Positions 1-22,053 of a stretch of 22,053 nt of DNA are shown one piece after another. The stretch comes from a virus. Both the position numbers and the translations under genes were made by a program. The stretch covers positions 1-22,053 of the IMG/VR virus record IMGVR_UViG_3300010354_000766. One strand, written 5' to 3'. Every line of letters starts with the position of its first letter. Position 1 is the stretch's first letter. The notes beneath the pieces are model-generated. The model saw only the letters and a list, made by a program, of their open reading frames with translations. It was not told the origin of the DNA and ran no database searches.

Positions 1-65
1 ATGGCTTTGTTTCCGGCGCTGGCGGCAATGGCGCGGCTGGTGTTGTGAGGGTCTGGACATGGTGA
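1..65 (+). CDS. C-terminal end of a probable phage tail-fibre protein (partial)
   Basis: Reading frame 3 is open from the window edge to a TGA at 63-65 and ends in GAGGNGAAGVVRVWTW. A Gly/Ala-rich run followed by a short beta-strand-like hydrophobic end is typical of the C-termini of phage tail fibres and adhesins, and the small proteins that follow also fit the end of a tail module. Only 20 residues are visible, so identity rests on this ending and on position. The stop overlaps the start of the next gene by 7 nt. Confidence 0.5.
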   Translation, partial: GFVSGAGGNGAAGVVRVWTW

Positions 66-5345: not shown

Positions 5346-5555
5346 GTGGACGACCTTACTCGTAGCTTTGCCGTAGAAGCAGCGCTAAGGCAGATCGATA
5401 ATTGCAGCAGCATAACAGAGCTAAAAGCTTTAGCAAAGACTCTCATCAAGTCTCACTTTGAGGCTCGCAGCTTCATCGCAACGCTGCTGCTGCAGGCTCC
5501 GCTACCCGGCTACCAGGCCGAGCTCGATGACGAGCTCCCCTGGCGCCGAGGCTGA
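5346..5555 (+). CDS. Small two-helix protein of unknown function
   Basis: A 69-aa protein read from GTG at 5346: MDDLTRSFAVEAALRQIDNC, then ITELKALAKTLIKSHFEARS, ending DELPWRRG. It appears to form two amphipathic helices (residues 5-20 and 24-50). It is the only plus-strand gene between two minus-strand replication genes; its stop is 4 nt before the stop of the helicase. I recall similar short helical proteins in picocyanobacteria but cannot name a function. Size and two-helix layout recall the phycobilisome-degradation protein NblA, but the sequence match is too weak to claim it. Confidence 0.6.
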   Translation: MDDLTRSFAVEAALRQIDNCSSITELKALAKTLIKSHFEARSFIATLLLQAPLPGYQAELDDELPWRRG

Positions 5556-5559
5556 AGCC

Positions 5560-8307
5560 CTACCAATCGTCCTCCCAATCTCCGTAGTCCTGCGTAGAAA
5601 CAGGCGCCCCCTTTATCCCCGAGACCGTGTCCAAAACCTCAGACTGATTCTCCGAAACCGCTGTGCTGGATAGGGTTTCAGCCTCGGAGGTTTTGGACAA
5701 CTCCTCCGCGTGTCCAAAACCTCCAGCTACCTCTGAGGCCATTTCAGGGGGTTTTTCCCCAGCAGTTTCCACAGGCTGATCAGTCTCATGCGTCTCAGAT
5801 GCGACTGTGCCCTGCTGAACCGTTTCGACCTCGGAGGTTTTGGACAACTCGAGGTTTTGGACAACTTTTTCTGACCCTTGTCCGAAACTCAAATCGCTTC
5901 CAGCAGAAGGAGTTCCAAAGAAAGAAGGGGGGGTTTTGGACACTCCGTCCCTCTCATATAGGGATTTGACCTTGAAACCCACCTGAGGTCTCCCCCCTTT
6001 GGATCCCGTCTGTCTCACGGTGGATTCCTCCACGAGGCCGGCAACAACCCACCGCTGCACCCACCGCTTCACCGTCTTCTCGCTGACGATCGTCCCGGGC
6101 CCCCTCCGCCCCGCCAACCGTGCATTCAGCGCGTAGCGCAGCTCTTTAGCCGTCATCGGATCCTCCGCCTCCTTAAGGATCCCGAGAACGAGCGTCCGCG
6201 GCGTCTCGTCGCCATTCCCTCCGTTCTCTCGGGTCACCGTAGGCGTGAGGTCTTCGATGCTCAGCGCCTCCTCGATGTCTTCCCGCACGAGGAAGCGATC
6301 ACCGCCCCGCATACCGCGGCTCTTGTCGATCTCGAGGATGAGCGCATGGTCGCCGTACTGCGCCCGCTCCTCATCACTCAGCTCCTTGAGCTCCCAGGTC
6401 TCGTGCACCGCATTCCGCAGCGTGTCTGTCCCGCGGAACTTCGTCCCATCTTTGGTGTTGTGGTGAATCCACAGGAACGTCGTCGCCGGAAACGCCGTCC
6501 CGTTCTCCCGCGCCAAGCGGTACAGCGTATTGGCGTACTCCTTCTCGTACTCCTTGGCGGCAATCATCATGCTCACCGACGTCAACGAGTCGACGACCAC
6601 GAGCACTGGCTTGATCTCCTCCAGCCACCGCACCAGCACCCGGTACTGGCTTTGCTGCCACTGCGGCTTGAACTTCATCCAGCGATCCGCCCCACTGGAG
6701 TCGATCCCCTGCTGATCGAAGTACTCCGCGTAGTCCGTCATAGACATGTCGTTGCCAATAAACAGCACGTTCCCCGAGACCGTCGGCTCCACCGTCAGCC
6801 CTCGCACCTTCATCGGCAGCTTCTGACCCACGATCTTGGACAGCAGCACCGCCAATCGGGTCTTGCCCATGCCGCCACGCGCGTGAAGCATCACCGAGGA
6901 CGGCTTCGACATGAAATCCGGAATCAAATAGTCCCGGTCCCCCCTTACTTTCTCTTGCCATTTCGGATCCGCCTCTACCTGCTCTTGGTGCAACAGGAAT
7001 CGCTCGAGCGCTGATTCCACCTGCGGCCCCGACTTGTAGACGTGCGTCAACCCCGAATCCCTCACCAGCTCCATCAACTGGTAATGCGCGAGCTCAGCGT
7101 TGTCGTACCCATTGATGATCTTCTCGGCCGCTGTGAAGAACTCCTGCCCCGACAGCCGTTTCAGCGGCGCATCTTTGATGGTGACCTCGGTCGCCGTTGC
7201 ACACGCTGGGTAGTCGTACCCCAGCTCCCCCGCCAGCTCTGCCACGTATGACTCGAGGTCGGGCCCACTAGGCCGCCCCGCGTGCATGTCCTCCGTGCGG
7301 ACCTTGTGCACGAAATCGAGAACGTCCCCACCTACACCACACGCCTTGCAGTCCCAGCAGCCGGTCTCTTCCGCGTACTGAAATGCCGTCCCGCTCTGCC
7401 CCCCGTGCCACGGGCAGCCACTCATCAGCTGCGGGTTCTCACCCCCACGTCGCTTCCACCCGTACTTGTCGAACACGGAATGGTTGAACACGAGGTCAGC
7501 CAGTCGCGGCCGCAACAGCGACTGCACTTCTTCCTTGAAGAACCACCCGCGTATCTGACGCGACGGCACCGCGGTCTGCCCCCCGAGCTCGTCAAGCAGC
7601 TCCTTCTGCTCCGCCTCCGACAGCCACTGCACCGGCTTCCTATGAGGCCTCAGCACATCCAGCACCCACTGCGGTGCCGGCGCCACCTGGCCTTCGTTGT
7701 AGTTGAGGAACTGATATGGCTGCTTTGTCTCTGGATGCGGCGAGCCCGGCACCACGCTCTGACACGCGTTGAATCGCAGCACGACCTCTTCGTAGGCCTC
7801 GCCACTGATCGCATCCCTGTCTCCTCCTGCACCGCGGTTCGTGTCCCCATGCCCGAGGTGCCACTGCCCGTCATCCGTCCGGAGGATCAGCGTCTTGACG
7901 TCCTTGAGCTCAGGCACCAGCCGCTTCGGCACCTGATAAAGGATCTGCCGGCGACCGGGCTTGCCTGACGTCCACGACATCGTCCGCTCTTCGCCATAAG
8001 GCTCATACTCCGCGCCCGCTACCTCGCGGTAACGCTCATCCGCGGCGTGCCCATCAATGTCAAGCGCAATCAATCCCCCCGAGAACGATCCCGTAACCAC
8101 CCCCAGGCCGACGTAGTCCTGCCTGAGCTGATATGCAGTCATGCACTCAATCCGCGTCAGCGGCTTTGTGCTCCACTCCTTTACGTAGGTGGCTTTACCC
8201 GCTACAGGTACAAACGCCCAACGATCGGGAAATACATCACGGCGCAGCAATTCAATAGCCCGTCCTTTTAGGAAGTCCGAGCTGTTGCCTTTGTGCTCTT
8301 TGTCCAT
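5560..8307 (-). CDS. Prim-Pol primase / RecA-fold helicase fusion
   Basis: This 915-aa protein probably opens the replication fork and makes primers. Residues about 15-215 resemble the bifunctional primase-polymerase (archaeo-eukaryotic primase) domain: GLGVVTGSFSGGLIALDIDG with Asp83 and Asp85. Residues 298-323 hold a CHC2-like zinc site (CPWH at 298-301; CWDCKAC with Cys317, Cys320 and Cys323). A RepA/DnaB-like ATPase follows, with Walker A ARGGMGKT (Lys482), Walker B PVLVVVDSLTS (Asp573) and FLWIHHNTKDGTKFRGTDTL. Residues about 700-780 look like a winged helix. The last ~125 residues are low-complexity and are encoded by DNA carrying a repeat array (see 5628-5942). The ATG at 8307 faces the divergent control region. 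Confidence 0.9.
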   Translation of the reverse strand: MDKEHKGNSSDFLKGRAIELLRRDVFPDRWAFVPVAGKATYVKEWSTKPLTRIECMTAYQLRQDYVGLGVVTGSFSGGLIALDIDGHAADERYREVAGAEYEPYGEERTMSWTSGKPGRRQILYQVPKRLVPELKDVKTLILRTDDGQWHLGHGDTNRGAGGDRDAISGEAYEEVVLRFNACQSVVPGSPHPETKQPYQFLNYNEGQVAPAPQWVLDVLRPHRKPVQWLSEAEQKELLDELGGQTAVPSRQIRGWFFKEEVQSLLRPRLADLVFNHSVFDKYGWKRRGGENPQLMSGCPWHGGQSGTAFQYAEETGCWDCKACGVGGDVLDFVHKVRTEDMHAGRPSGPDLESYVAELAGELGYDYPACATATEVTIKDAPLKRLSGQEFFTAAEKIINGYDNAELAHYQLMELVRDSGLTHVYKSGPQVESALERFLLHQEQVEADPKWQEKVRGDRDYLIPDFMSKPSSVMLHARGGMGKTRLAVLLSKIVGQKLPMKVRGLTVEPTVSGNVLFIGNDMSMTDYAEYFDQQGIDSSGADRWMKFKPQWQQSQYRVLVRWLEEIKPVLVVVDSLTSVSMMIAAKEYEKEYANTLYRLARENGTAFPATTFLWIHHNTKDGTKFRGTDTLRNAVHETWELKELSDEERAQYGDHALILEIDKSRGMRGGDRFLVREDIEEALSIEDLTPTVTRENGGNGDETPRTLVLGILKEAEDPMTAKELRYALNARLAGRRGPGTIVSEKTVKRWVQRWVVAGLVEESTVRQTGSKGGRPQVGFKVKSLYERDGVSKTPPSFFGTPSAGSDLSFGQGSEKVVQNLELSKTSEVETVQQGTVASETHETDQPVETAGEKPPEMASEVAGGFGHAEELSKTSEAETLSSTAVSENQSEVLDTVSGIKGAPVSTQDYGDWEDDW
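5628..5942. repeat. Six-copy iteron-like array, candidate embedded origin
   Basis: The 13-mer GAGGTTTTGGACA, or its complement, occurs at 5628-5640 (minus), 5687-5699 (plus), 5711-5723 (minus), 5834-5846 (plus), 5851-5863 (plus) and, with one change, 5930-5942 (plus). A decayed copy lies at 5879-5890. Copies 2 and 3 form inverted arms of 14 perfect bases with an 11-nt spacer (5686-5724). The copies are read as LSKTS, VQNLE, EVLDT and GGFGH in the helicase tail, so it is the DNA and not the peptide that is repeated. Phage lambda keeps its origin inside gene O in the same way. Origin function here is inferred. Confidence 0.7.
5782..5794 (-). promoter_or_regulatory. Copy of the ATGAGACT motif inside the origin-like array
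   Basis: On the minus strand the 13-mer GACGCATGAGACT lies between iteron copies 3 and 4. The same 13 bases occur at 12467-12479 in the non-coding region upstream of the tandem promoters. It is inside the helicase coding sequence. A binding site shared by origin and promoters is possible but not proven. Confidence 0.4.
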
Positions 8308-12325: not shown

Positions 12326-12402
12326 GTTTGTAGCAGCTTAAAGCCCGTACATACACATACAGTTTTTCTAGCCCAGGATGTGTCATATCCCCCTCTAGCC
12401 CA

Positions 12403-12427
12403 GTCTCGTTGCGACGCAAGGCGAGAC
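12403..12427. repeat. Compound inverted repeat
   Basis: Outer arms GTCTCG (12403-12408) and CGAGAC (12422-12427) enclose TTGCG-A-CGCAA (12409-12419) with a two-base GG interruption. The single-base centre makes a protein-binding palindrome likelier than an RNA hairpin. It lies 97 nt after the sigma gene. Confidence 0.45.
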
Positions 12428-12433
12428 CCAACT

Positions 12434-12602
12434 TGCGACACCATGAGACTCATGCCCCTCAGGTGCGACGCATGAGACTCACTGGGGTGGCTTGACATCC
12501 GGCCGACGCCACGCCAGACTGACCTCACGCGCGCACATCATGCGCGTTTCCACTTGCTCTGGCAAGCGGTCCCGTCTCCCGGCTTGCGTCTCATGAGACT
12601 TA
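12434..12602 (+). repeat. Three copies of an 18-19-bp direct repeat upstream of tandem promoters
   Basis: TGCGACACCATGAGACTCA (12434-12452), TGCGACGCATGAGACTCA (12464-12481) and TGCGTCTCATGAGACTTA (12585-12602). Copies 2 and 3 lie at the same distance from the promoter-like elements that follow: ATGAGACT, 7 nt, then GTGGCTTGAC. In copy 3 the motif is part of the perfect palindrome GTCTCATGAGAC (12588-12599). The fixed spacing suggests activator or repressor sites belonging to each promoter. Confidence 0.65.
12492..12520 (+). promoter_or_regulatory. Tandem promoter-like element P1
   Basis: TTGACA at 12492-12497, 17-nt spacer, CAGACT at 12515-12520. The -10 is far from TATAAT but resembles those of P2 and P3. 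An ATGAGACT repeat sits at a fixed distance upstream. Confidence 0.5.
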
Positions 12603-12612
12603 GCCAAGTGGC

Positions 12613-12641
12613 TTGACGGATTGCGCGATCTGCGCAACACT
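12613..12641 (+). promoter_or_regulatory. Tandem promoter-like element P2
   Basis: TTGACG at 12613-12618, 17-nt spacer, AACACT at 12636-12641. It shares GTGGCTTGAC and the upstream ATGAGACT spacing with P1, as if the module had been duplicated. Confidence 0.5.
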
Positions 12642-12731
12642 TCATGTCATCGGAGCTCAGCCGCCCTGTGAAGCCTAGACCTCAGGTCAGCTTCCCGCGG
12701 CTGCGCGCCGATACCGGCTCCGGCCGGTTGC

Positions 12732-12761
12732 TTGACAATCCGGCGCCTCGTGTGCCACACT
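12732..12761 (+). promoter_or_regulatory. Tandem promoter-like element P3
   Basis: TTGACA at 12732-12737, 18-nt spacer, CACACT at 12756-12761. It lacks the ATGAGACT site of P1 and P2. It would start RNA near 12768, at the beginning of the structured region. Confidence 0.5.
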
Positions 12762-12767
12762 TCCCTC

Positions 12768-13301
12768 AGTTCAGAACCTCCAATGCACTAACACCGAGAG
12801 CGGGGCAGGGCCCTGCGCGATAAATAGGCCACGGCCGCCGAACCGCTTATCCCCGTCTGGGGGAGCGAGGGCGCTAGGGCCTGAGATAAGTAGGGAGCTG
12901 GGCTAGTACCCCAGCGAACGCGAAACCCCCGACAAGTCGGTCCCGCTTTCATGCGGGCTGAATCCGGTGAGGGGCGGAGTAGTTGATCAACCGAAAGGCT
13001 CAGGTGGGTGTTGACCCGTAACCGAACGCGGACCCTTCGTACCGGTGTAGGACGCCAAAGACAGTAGTGGCTAGCGTGCACCGCCTCACGGCGGGGGTGT
13101 GTCCGGACTCCAGATCCGGGCGCGGTGAGTCAACTCCCCACACCCAGCACAGATAGCGGCGCTCCTATCAGGCCGCACTACAAATGAGTGATAGGACGGT
13201 TGCGCGTGTCAACCGTGGCACCGAGCATTCGGCTCTGCTCCACACGCACAAACCATCTCCCCCAGAAGTCCCCCCTGGCGCACTGCGTCCGGGGGTCTTT
13301 T
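12768..13301 (+). ncRNA. Candidate large structured non-coding RNA
   Basis: About 530 nt between P3 and an intrinsic terminator show many strong hairpins and no protein frame. Examples are GCTGGG/CCCAGC around 12897-12915, CCGA/TCGG around 12929-12940, CCCGC/GCGGG around 12952-12957, CCGCC/GGCGG around 13081-13094, TCCGGA/TCCGGG around 13102-13120 and ACGGTTG/CAACCGT (13196-13216). A CC-GAAA-GG tetraloop lies near 12991. TCCTATCA (13163-13170) pairs with TGATAGGA (13189-13196) but could instead pair with GATAG (13152-13156). I cannot assign a family. Large phage RNAs such as GOLLD are of similar size and context. It could instead be a long leader of the downstream genes. Confidence 0.55.
13270..13301 (+). 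terminator. Intrinsic terminator of the structured RNA
   Basis: CCCCC (to 13275) pairs with GGGGG (13291-13295) over an inner stem GGCGC-ACT-GCGTC, followed by TCTTTT (13296-13301). It lies 45 nt before the next start codon and separates the RNA region from the small-gene arm. Confidence 0.8.
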
Positions 13302-20605: not shown

Positions 20606-21002
20606 CTACGCAACACCCGAGCAGTGGGCCCAGTGCGAGGGGTGGGTGAACAACCCCGTCGTCGGAGCTACCGATGCCTGCGTCCTCGAACTACGCACGC
20701 GCGTCGGAGCACTGGAAGACGACAGCTGGAAGCAAGCCGAAAGCACACGCTTCTGCGTGGATGCCTTGGTGAAGCGCATCGAAGCGCTTGAAGCCACCGT
20801 CAACCCAACTCCTAATGATCGCCAAATTAGGAGTTCGCTTGTTGAGGATCTCGCCGATCTGATCGCTGTGAAGACCCGAGATCACGGCACCGAGGACGAC
20901 ACAGCTGCCCGGGCAGTTCTCAACGCTGTCGCCCTGTGGCTCAGCCAACACGCCGGCGGCACCCGCGCCAGCTGGCTCCTCGAGCGCGAGGCAGAGCGAT
21001 GA
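20598..21002 (+). CDS. Cyanophage-type hypothetical protein (ATPEQWAQ family)
   Basis: A 134-aa protein with MPDYATPEQWAQCEGWVNNP, then ACVLELRTRVGALEDDSWKQ and VDALVKRIEALEATVNPTPN, a heptad-like central part. The YATPEQWA...ELR.RV.ALE pattern is common in small proteins of picocyanobacteria and their phages. Role unknown; the coiled coil suggests self-association. It overlaps the next gene by ATGA. Confidence 0.75.
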   Translation: MPDYATPEQWAQCEGWVNNPVVGATDACVLELRTRVGALEDDSWKQAESTRFCVDALVKRIEALEATVNPTPNDRQIRSSLVEDLADLIAVKTRDHGTEDDTAARAVLNAVALWLSQHAGGTRASWLLEREAER

Positions 21003-21328
21003 CACAACAACACCCCATCACCCCACCGCCGGAGCTGGTAGAGCAGTGGGCAGACATATTGGCTTCGCGCTCGGATGAAGCAGTATTCAGCCTTGCCGCC
21101 CAATGGGGCGCCGACCAGGAGCTGGAGGCGTGCTGTGAGTATCTGGTGCGCTGTGCTCAATGGGAACCTGAGGATGTCGCAGAACTCCGCGCCGCCCGCC
21201 GCCCCAAGCCGCCGAGCTTGAAAGAGCAGGCGCTAACTGCGCTGACGCGGTACACGACTGGTGAAACAATCCTCACCAACGAATCTGTTGACACCATCCG
21301 CCGCGCATTGGAGCAGCTTGATGACTGA
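20999..21328 (+). CDS. Cyanophage-type hypothetical protein (ITPPPELV..W family)
   Basis: A 109-aa protein with HPITPPPELVEQWADILASR, AAQWGADQELEACCEYLVRC and RRPKPPSLKEQALTALTRY. I know this combination from many picocyanobacterial phage genomes, where it occurs in multiple copies. The function is unknown. A 25-nt stretch near its start (21015-21039) is repeated exactly in the gene at the right edge (21930-21954), showing recent duplication. It starts by ATGA overlap. Confidence 0.8.
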   Translation: MTQQHPITPPPELVEQWADILASRSDEAVFSLAAQWGADQELEACCEYLVRCAQWEPEDVAELRAARRPKPPSLKEQALTALTRYTTGETILTNESVDTIRRALEQLDD

Positions 21329-21729: not shown

Positions 21730-21917
21730 AACTCGAGCACAAGCGAGCCCTCCGTTGCTTCATTCTCGAGAAACTCAAAGAGGTGACCTGTGTAGACCTT
21801 GCGTACTTAGCCTCAGATGTTAACTGCACCCCGTTTGAAATGGCCGAGCAGTACAGCATTGAGCTAGAGCGCATTGAGAAACTCTTCAACTACCCAAACT
21901 ATTCCGACGACGAATGA
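21726..21917 (+). CDS. Hypothetical small protein
   Basis: A 63-aa protein read from GTG at 21726 (MKLEHKRALRCFILEKLKEV start, FNYPNYSDDE end). A helical arrangement with VDLAYLASDVNCTPFEMAEQ suggests a small HTH-like fold, but there is no firm match. It overlaps both neighbours by 4 nt (GTGA and ATGA). Confidence 0.65.
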   Translation: MKLEHKRALRCFILEKLKEVTCVDLAYLASDVNCTPFEMAEQYSIELERIEKLFNYPNYSDDE

Positions 21918-22053
21918 CTAAGAACCACGCCATCACCCCACCGCCGGAGCTGGTGCAGCAGTGGATGGAAGAGCTATACGGCGGTCCAGTTTCTGTGATT
22001 AGCCCGTTTGATCAACGCGTCCTTATAGCTGTCGCCCAATGGGGCGCTGACCA
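21914..22053 (+). CDS. ITPPPELV..W family protein, partial (runs off window)
   Basis: The frame starts with ATG at 21914 (ATGA overlap) and continues past the window edge. The visible 46 residues include AITPPPELVQQWMEELYGGP and VAQWGAD, a paralogue of the gene at 20999, with an exact 25-nt DNA match at 21930-21954. The C-terminal part is not in the window. Confidence 0.8.
   Translation, partial: MTKNHAITPPPELVQQWMEELYGGPVSVISPFDQRVLIAVAQWGAD

Follow-up and report, generated by a model that had tools for sequence, protein, structure and literature searches.

The window examined here, a stretch of 22,053 nucleotides of viral DNA from IMG/VR, carries a short DNA word repeated within the 3' end of a replication gene, which raises the question of what these repeats do and which protein recognizes them. 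The gene (5560..8307, minus strand, as are all the protein features given below) was assigned, from its open reading frame and Pfam matches, to a 915-aa replication protein that joins Prim-Pol, Zn-finger, RecA-like helicase and winged-helix parts and is proposed to be the initiator. Its Prim-Pol (AEP) domain (residues 29-214; 7666..8223; PF09250, 1.7e-14) is followed by a CHC2-type zinc finger (residues 288-338; 7294..7446; PF01807, 3.2e-5, slightly below the curated cutoff) and by a RecA-like AAA_25 helicase core (residues 455-621; 6445..6945; PF13481, 8e-10). This succession of an AEP Prim-Pol domain and a helicase-type ATPase is that of a Prim-Pol/helicase protein. Immediately past the initiator gene lies a small convergent ORF (5346-5555, plus strand); L060, a distant relative, carries a clear homologue of this ORF, which matches no Pfam family. 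Downstream of the Prim-Pol/helicase gene, and on the same strand, is a gene for DNA polymerase A.

Beyond the helicase core, AlphaFold models predict a winged-helix domain (residues 703-780; 5968..6201) that matches winged-helix structures in the PDB with Z scores of 9-10.6. In these models, two helices (residues 703-713 and 720-731) precede the recognition helix (residues 743-755), and a beta hairpin formed by strands 759-764 and 775-780 encloses the wing, as expected for a winged-helix fold. The solved structures of P4 alpha and SaPI Rep are absent among the fold matches listed, which is uninformative, and a profile search of the full protein against the PDB gave no matches. Two elements of the domain are relevant for what follows, namely the recognition helix (delimited as residues 743-756 from the structure model, SEKTVKRWVQRWVV; 6040..6081), altered where the left half of the word differs, and the wing loop (residues 765-774, RQTGSKGGRP; 5986..6015), which varies with the right half of the word. 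The remaining C-terminal tail (residues 784-915; 5563..5958) is predicted to be disordered in the full-length model (pLDDT ~25), contains all the repeats, and finishes in an acidic/aromatic tip, TQDYGDWEDDW (5563..5595), proposed to be a protein-contact peptide. The tails of most clades likewise end in acidic plus W/F tips.

The first-pass annotation of this DNA had reported six copies of a 13-mer in both orientations, one of them with a single change, and two forming a 14-bp perfect inverted pair. Inspection of the region 5628-5942 located all of them, five exact copies of TGTCCAAAACCTC and one with a single change, together with the inverted pair (5686-5699/5711-5724). It also revealed a degenerate seventh copy, TGTCCGAAAC, that had been overlooked and whose counterpart at this position is intact in most close relatives. 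Numbered in gene order, the array comprises iteron 1 (5930-5942, minus strand; single change), iteron 2 (5879-5888, plus; degenerate), and the exact iterons 3 (5851-5863, minus), 4 (5834-5846, minus), 5 (5711-5723, plus), 6 (5687-5699, minus) and 7 (5628-5640, plus). All seven fall within the coding sequence 5560-8307, at residues 789-894 of the disordered tail. The array thus groups repeated copies of one short, specific word in a single place, as in iteron-type origins, and does so inside the reading frame proposed to encode the initiator, as in the lambda-type arrangement.

Clustering of this kind is not expected by chance. The closest further match to TGTCCAAAACCTC in the 22 kb window (47-59) has two mismatches and, when up to three mismatches were allowed, the window contained 12 matches compared with 4.5 +/- 2.1 expected, a count reached in none of 100 shuffles. 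Furthermore, a de novo word search scored the tail at 13.3, above the maximum of 7.2 obtained in 216 dinucleotide shuffles and also above the maximum of 11.1 found in 344 real control windows. A different type of repeat was also observed: palindromic words (GTCTCATGAGAC / GACGCATGAGAC), possibly repressor operators, occur at ~12.4-12.6 kb amid TTGACA promoter-like boxes, and one copy of this type of palindrome falls in the gap at the centre of the array (5783-5795), being found again at the same place in the relatives L008, L011, L013, L016, L019 and L021.

Since most members of the family translate the tail and the peptide LSKTS appears twice in it, the repeats could be regarded as peptide repeats retained for a function of the protein. 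The word, however, occurs in both orientations and is translated in three frames, yielding the different peptides EVLDT, LSKTS (twice), GGFGH, VVQNL, LSFGQ and VSKTP. Moreover, in the 12 relatives that share the word, conservation is higher in the iteron columns (0.958) than elsewhere in the tail (0.805), and this also applies to third codon positions (0.957 versus 0.779); none of 398 circular shifts of the site map matched the observed iteron conservation. Both the reading in several frames and the conservation, third codon positions included, argue that selection acts on the DNA, as the first-pass annotation had claimed on the basis of the multiple translations. Two relatives, L048 and L329, have an early stop codon in the gene, with the array ~86-300 bp beyond it, which indicates that the array is a DNA element independent of translation. 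The peptide explanation is already contradicted by these observations, and we give it practically no chance. An additional copy of the gene, L332 (gene 2-2005), from a cyanobacterial MAG, stops soon after the wing in a changed frame, and an array of its own wing type (TGTCCGTTCA) is still present across and past the stop.

The same annotation anticipated that related phages would carry repeats in the same tail, with other words and the same layout, and this was found in nearly every lineage. Five scans of viral contigs and one genome scan provided ~65 distinct contigs that include the 3' end of the gene, nearly all of which (about 60) contain 5-8 copies of one lineage-specific word in the same tail, amounting to 26 distinct 10-mers. 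Array positions and orientations are conserved within each clade: they are near-identical between the clade of the window and its sisters L034, L035, L041 and L079 despite the different words, and a second clade presents six sites of alternating orientation. Where words were searched across whole genomes, they were concentrated in the tail, and in two relatives of 66 kb and 56 kb all the listed occurrences of TGTCCAAAAC fall there. No array was detectable in the long-branch relative L038. L146 was considered as an array-less exception and discarded as such when alignment to its sister L151 exposed TGATANTTNT sites. A search of viral contigs for the inverted-pair pattern, conducted with two words, retrieved only family members plus one unrelated AT-rich match (L367), which was rejected as an array copy residing elsewhere, in a decoy or satellite, and attributed to chance. 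In the class to which Synechococcus sp. BO 8801 belongs, none of 390 genomes contained the inverted pair of the window word. A cyanobacterium is the probable host, given that relatives are present in cyanobacterial genomes, including that of Synechococcus sp. BO 8801 itself (L331), and that an AbrB-like protein is encoded in the window.

The diversity of words made it possible to ask which protein changes together with them. On a core tree built on residues 1-690, the word has changed at least 28 times. In clade C, where wing class and word half have undergone nine changes each, wings of the type GQ[RN] pair with TTCA, G[SA]D with TTGC, and G[AVS]K with TCGT, with a small deviation in L147 (a GSD wing with TTTCC). 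For the first of these pairings, all seven independent contrasts were in agreement (sign test p=0.0156). When close pairs, defined by a helicase core identity of >=90%, were compared, wing identity was 85% in those sharing the word and 58% in those with different words, whereas their cores were no less alike in the latter (94% identity with the same word versus 96% with different words). Among ~790 columns, the top eight for excess change in different-word pairs correspond to residues 760-773; six of them are in the wing loop or at its edge (764-773) and the other two are residues 760-761, with K744, in the recognition helix, among the columns ranked next.

The recognition helix follows the other half of the word, being altered in lineages in which the left half has changed. 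Similar pairings are encountered at considerable distances: an SRRT helix accompanies TGACC in both L035 and L048, whose cores are ~50% identical, and a KGGRP wing accompanies AAAAC across clades that are ~50% identical. A one-residue code for the recognition helix was discarded, given that TVRRW occurs with TGTCA (L045, L329) as well as with TGTCC (L184, L147). A check of words predicted from the wing, made with the code already in hand, in L143, L193, L145, L332, L151 and L059, in which the unguided search was weak or empty, also favored the pairing; the word of L146 was identified post hoc. Overall, the covariation of the word with helix and wing strongly supports the notion that the winged-helix domain of the same protein binds the iterons.

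The window also encodes other small DNA-binding proteins, e.g., the AbrB-like protein and a repressor-like HTH protein, and the array might accordingly be bound by one of these or by a host protein. Nevertheless, sister genomes with different words, such as L062 and L075, are near-identical over the remainder of the 9.6-kb locus, the island formed by wing and array being the only strongly divergent stretch between them, and the changes that accompany a switch of word are concentrated in the wing. A switch of the host protein would be unexpected between phages so similar. We therefore consider recognition by another protein very unlikely, and retain the winged helix of the initiator as the protein that would read the array.

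Comparison of sister genomes further delimited the variable region. Sisters with different words (L062/L075, L019/L023, L143/L144, L260/L290 and L151/L146, with flanks compared over up to 12 kb) are highly similar except for one divergent island of 0.3-0.5 kb, which starts at the recognition helix or the wing and ends just past the array. Given that the wing adjoins the array and both change within this single island, it could be argued that wing and word covary only through the swapping of a short tract by recombination, with no functional pairing between them. Such linkage could contribute a part of the covariation. As the sole cause, however, it would not account for the divergence being centred on wing and iterons, for the concerted change of all copies, or for the recurrence of similar pairings across clades that are ~50% identical (KGGRP with AAAAC, and SRRT with TGACC in L035 and L048). 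The pair L151/L146 is also difficult to reconcile with linkage, as the inter-iteron sequence is partly shared and the difference lies mainly at the specificity residues and the iterons, L146, with its changed helix, having TGATANTTNT at the exact positions of TGTCCNTTGC in L151. Linkage without functional pairing is thus very unlikely, and a functional match between the winged helix and its word is the explanation we favor.

A broader interpretation, which we put forward tentatively and at somewhat less than even chance, is that wing and iterons form a self-contained, hypervariable origin-specificity cassette of ~0.3-0.5 kb, contained mostly in one gene, that is repeatedly exchanged between closely related cyanophages, rare origin types being favored, and that the pairing of wing and word may be a readable winged-helix recognition code. 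If this interpretation were true, candidate pressures would include satellites, origin-directed nucleases, decoy origins, and relatives that superinfect and take advantage of a common origin. The 26 words and the many sister pairs constitute in any case an unusually rich natural data set on joint changes of specificity in a winged helix and its DNA site.

As for the role of the array, the first-pass annotation had proposed either the phage origin or a site for the helicase or its winged-helix part; the second proposal is now supported by the covariation of the word with wing and recognition helix, and the first is what we infer. From these sequence comparisons, the array is probably an iteron cluster bound by the winged helix encoded in the same gene and serving as the phage replication origin. 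According to the mechanism proposed, the recognition helix would read chiefly TGTCC, the left half of the word, and the wing chiefly AAAAC, the right half, and six or seven molecules physically bound in this way would assemble the helicase on the 3' end of the gene that encodes it. The helicase would be loaded at the array and the origin would fire there, with the fused Prim-Pol domain priming DNA synthesis. The tail would behave as a disordered linker carrying the C-terminal acidic/aromatic peptide, and the reading frame may be kept open across the array because this linker carries the tip, whose role would be to contact another protein.

Another possible role for an array bound by the winged helix would be that of a control site, for autoregulation, copy-number control or partition, with the origin located elsewhere. 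Several observations would fit this possibility. No strong AT-rich unwinding element was found near the array, a mild rise in AT content being seen in some clades only at ~100-300 bp past the stop (0.50-0.55 in clade A). GC skew, which the first-pass annotation had suggested as a guide to the origin, does not mark the array: analyzed in long relatives, it keeps one sign over most of three genomes of 66-72 kb and is mixed in a fourth, with no switch at the array, and was therefore unable to place the origin. In addition, the central gap of the array holds a palindrome like those of the promoter-like region at 12.4-12.6 kb. On the other hand, the array occupies the 3' end of the gene, a long way from the promoter of that gene, six or seven sites over 0.3 kb are typical for the loading of an initiator, and such arrays are origins in lambda O, SPP1 gp38 and SaPI Rep (PMC6022878, PMC6316719, PMC7581432). 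A purely regulatory site is thus unlikely, albeit the most credible of the alternatives considered, and origin function is preferred. The single-signed skew, which extends across nearly the whole genome in the relatives L333-L344 (66-72 kb), may fit one-directional replication.

The location of an origin within the tail of the gene was initially viewed as a new arrangement, and precedents in lambda O, SPP1 gp38 and SaPI Rep make it less so. Lambda indeed keeps its origin iterons inside the initiator gene, as the first-pass annotation had stated, and the O protein has a DNA-binding and a partner-binding part with a flexible linker between them (PMC6022878, PMC7466680). Lambda O resembles the system of the window in having iterons within the initiator gene; however, it is neither a helicase nor a primase, and its iterons are imperfect inverted repeats of 18-19 bp, bound by dimers and placed in the middle of the gene beside an AT-rich region, whereas the words described here are non-palindromic, 10-13 bp long, and located in the disordered tail of a fused primase-helicase. 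No lambda O family was listed among the Pfam matches of the protein, which are Prim-Pol, AAA_25 and a Zn ribbon. SPP1 gp38 also has origin repeats (oriL) inside the gene of the protein that binds them (PMC6316719), the difference being that gp38 acts as an initiator distinct from the loader gp39 and the helicase gp40, its partners.

Helicases that recognize iterons at the end of their own gene through a C-terminal domain are known in SaPI Rep and SCCmec Cch2, the SaPI iterons being directly downstream of rep (PMC7581432). This arrangement resembles that of L048 and L329, in which the array lies past the stop, but in the SaPI and SCC systems the iterons are outside the gene and the proteins lack a fused Prim-Pol domain. 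Multidomain parallels are found in P4 alpha and pRN1 ORF904, primase-helicases that also contain a winged helix, and P4 alpha binds origin repeats (PMC4234260); yet P4 alpha has a Toprim primase, and the proposed origin of pRN1 is a stem-loop that lies downstream of the gene and lacks iterons. In the PLE satellites of Vibrio cholerae, the DNA-binding domain of RepA and the origin covary and are exchanged as a module, an exchange for which an origin-directed nuclease has been proposed as the driver (PMC8263062). This modular covariation is shared with the phages studied here; RepA, however, is a RepA_N protein with its origin in a separate intergenic region, and there are two types of module compared with the 26 words found here.

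Origins within initiator genes being already known, what appears to be new here is the class of protein, the site in a disordered tail and the repeatedly swapped cassette. In a literature survey of incomplete coverage, which leaves novelty unproven, we found no described case in a cyanobacterial-phage Prim-Pol/RecA-like helicase and no description of a cassette so small and so often changed. The array and its gene are the likely origin and initiator of a large group of viruses, probably of cyanobacteria, that has received little study, and in which the type of this putative origin switches between near-identical genomes and can be tested as a trait of defence, parasitism or incompatibility.

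Some further features were observed. In Synechococcus phage S-LBS1 (L328), whose Prim-Pol gene is a different one, ~14 TGCCTAACCT-like words directly follow this gene, spanning from 6 to ~380 bases past the stop; in the S-LBS1 literature surveyed, these repeats are not reported as an origin. Within the window, a long stretch lacking a convincing gene (12330-13180) lies beside a sigma factor gene and has no Rfam or tRNA match; its segment at 12.76-13.18 kb was considered as a structured RNA and rejected (no Rfam match, fold z-score of 0.02). Finally, the start of one gene appears to be duplicated near the right end of the window, at 20999-21049 and 21914-21964 (84% identical over 51 nt).
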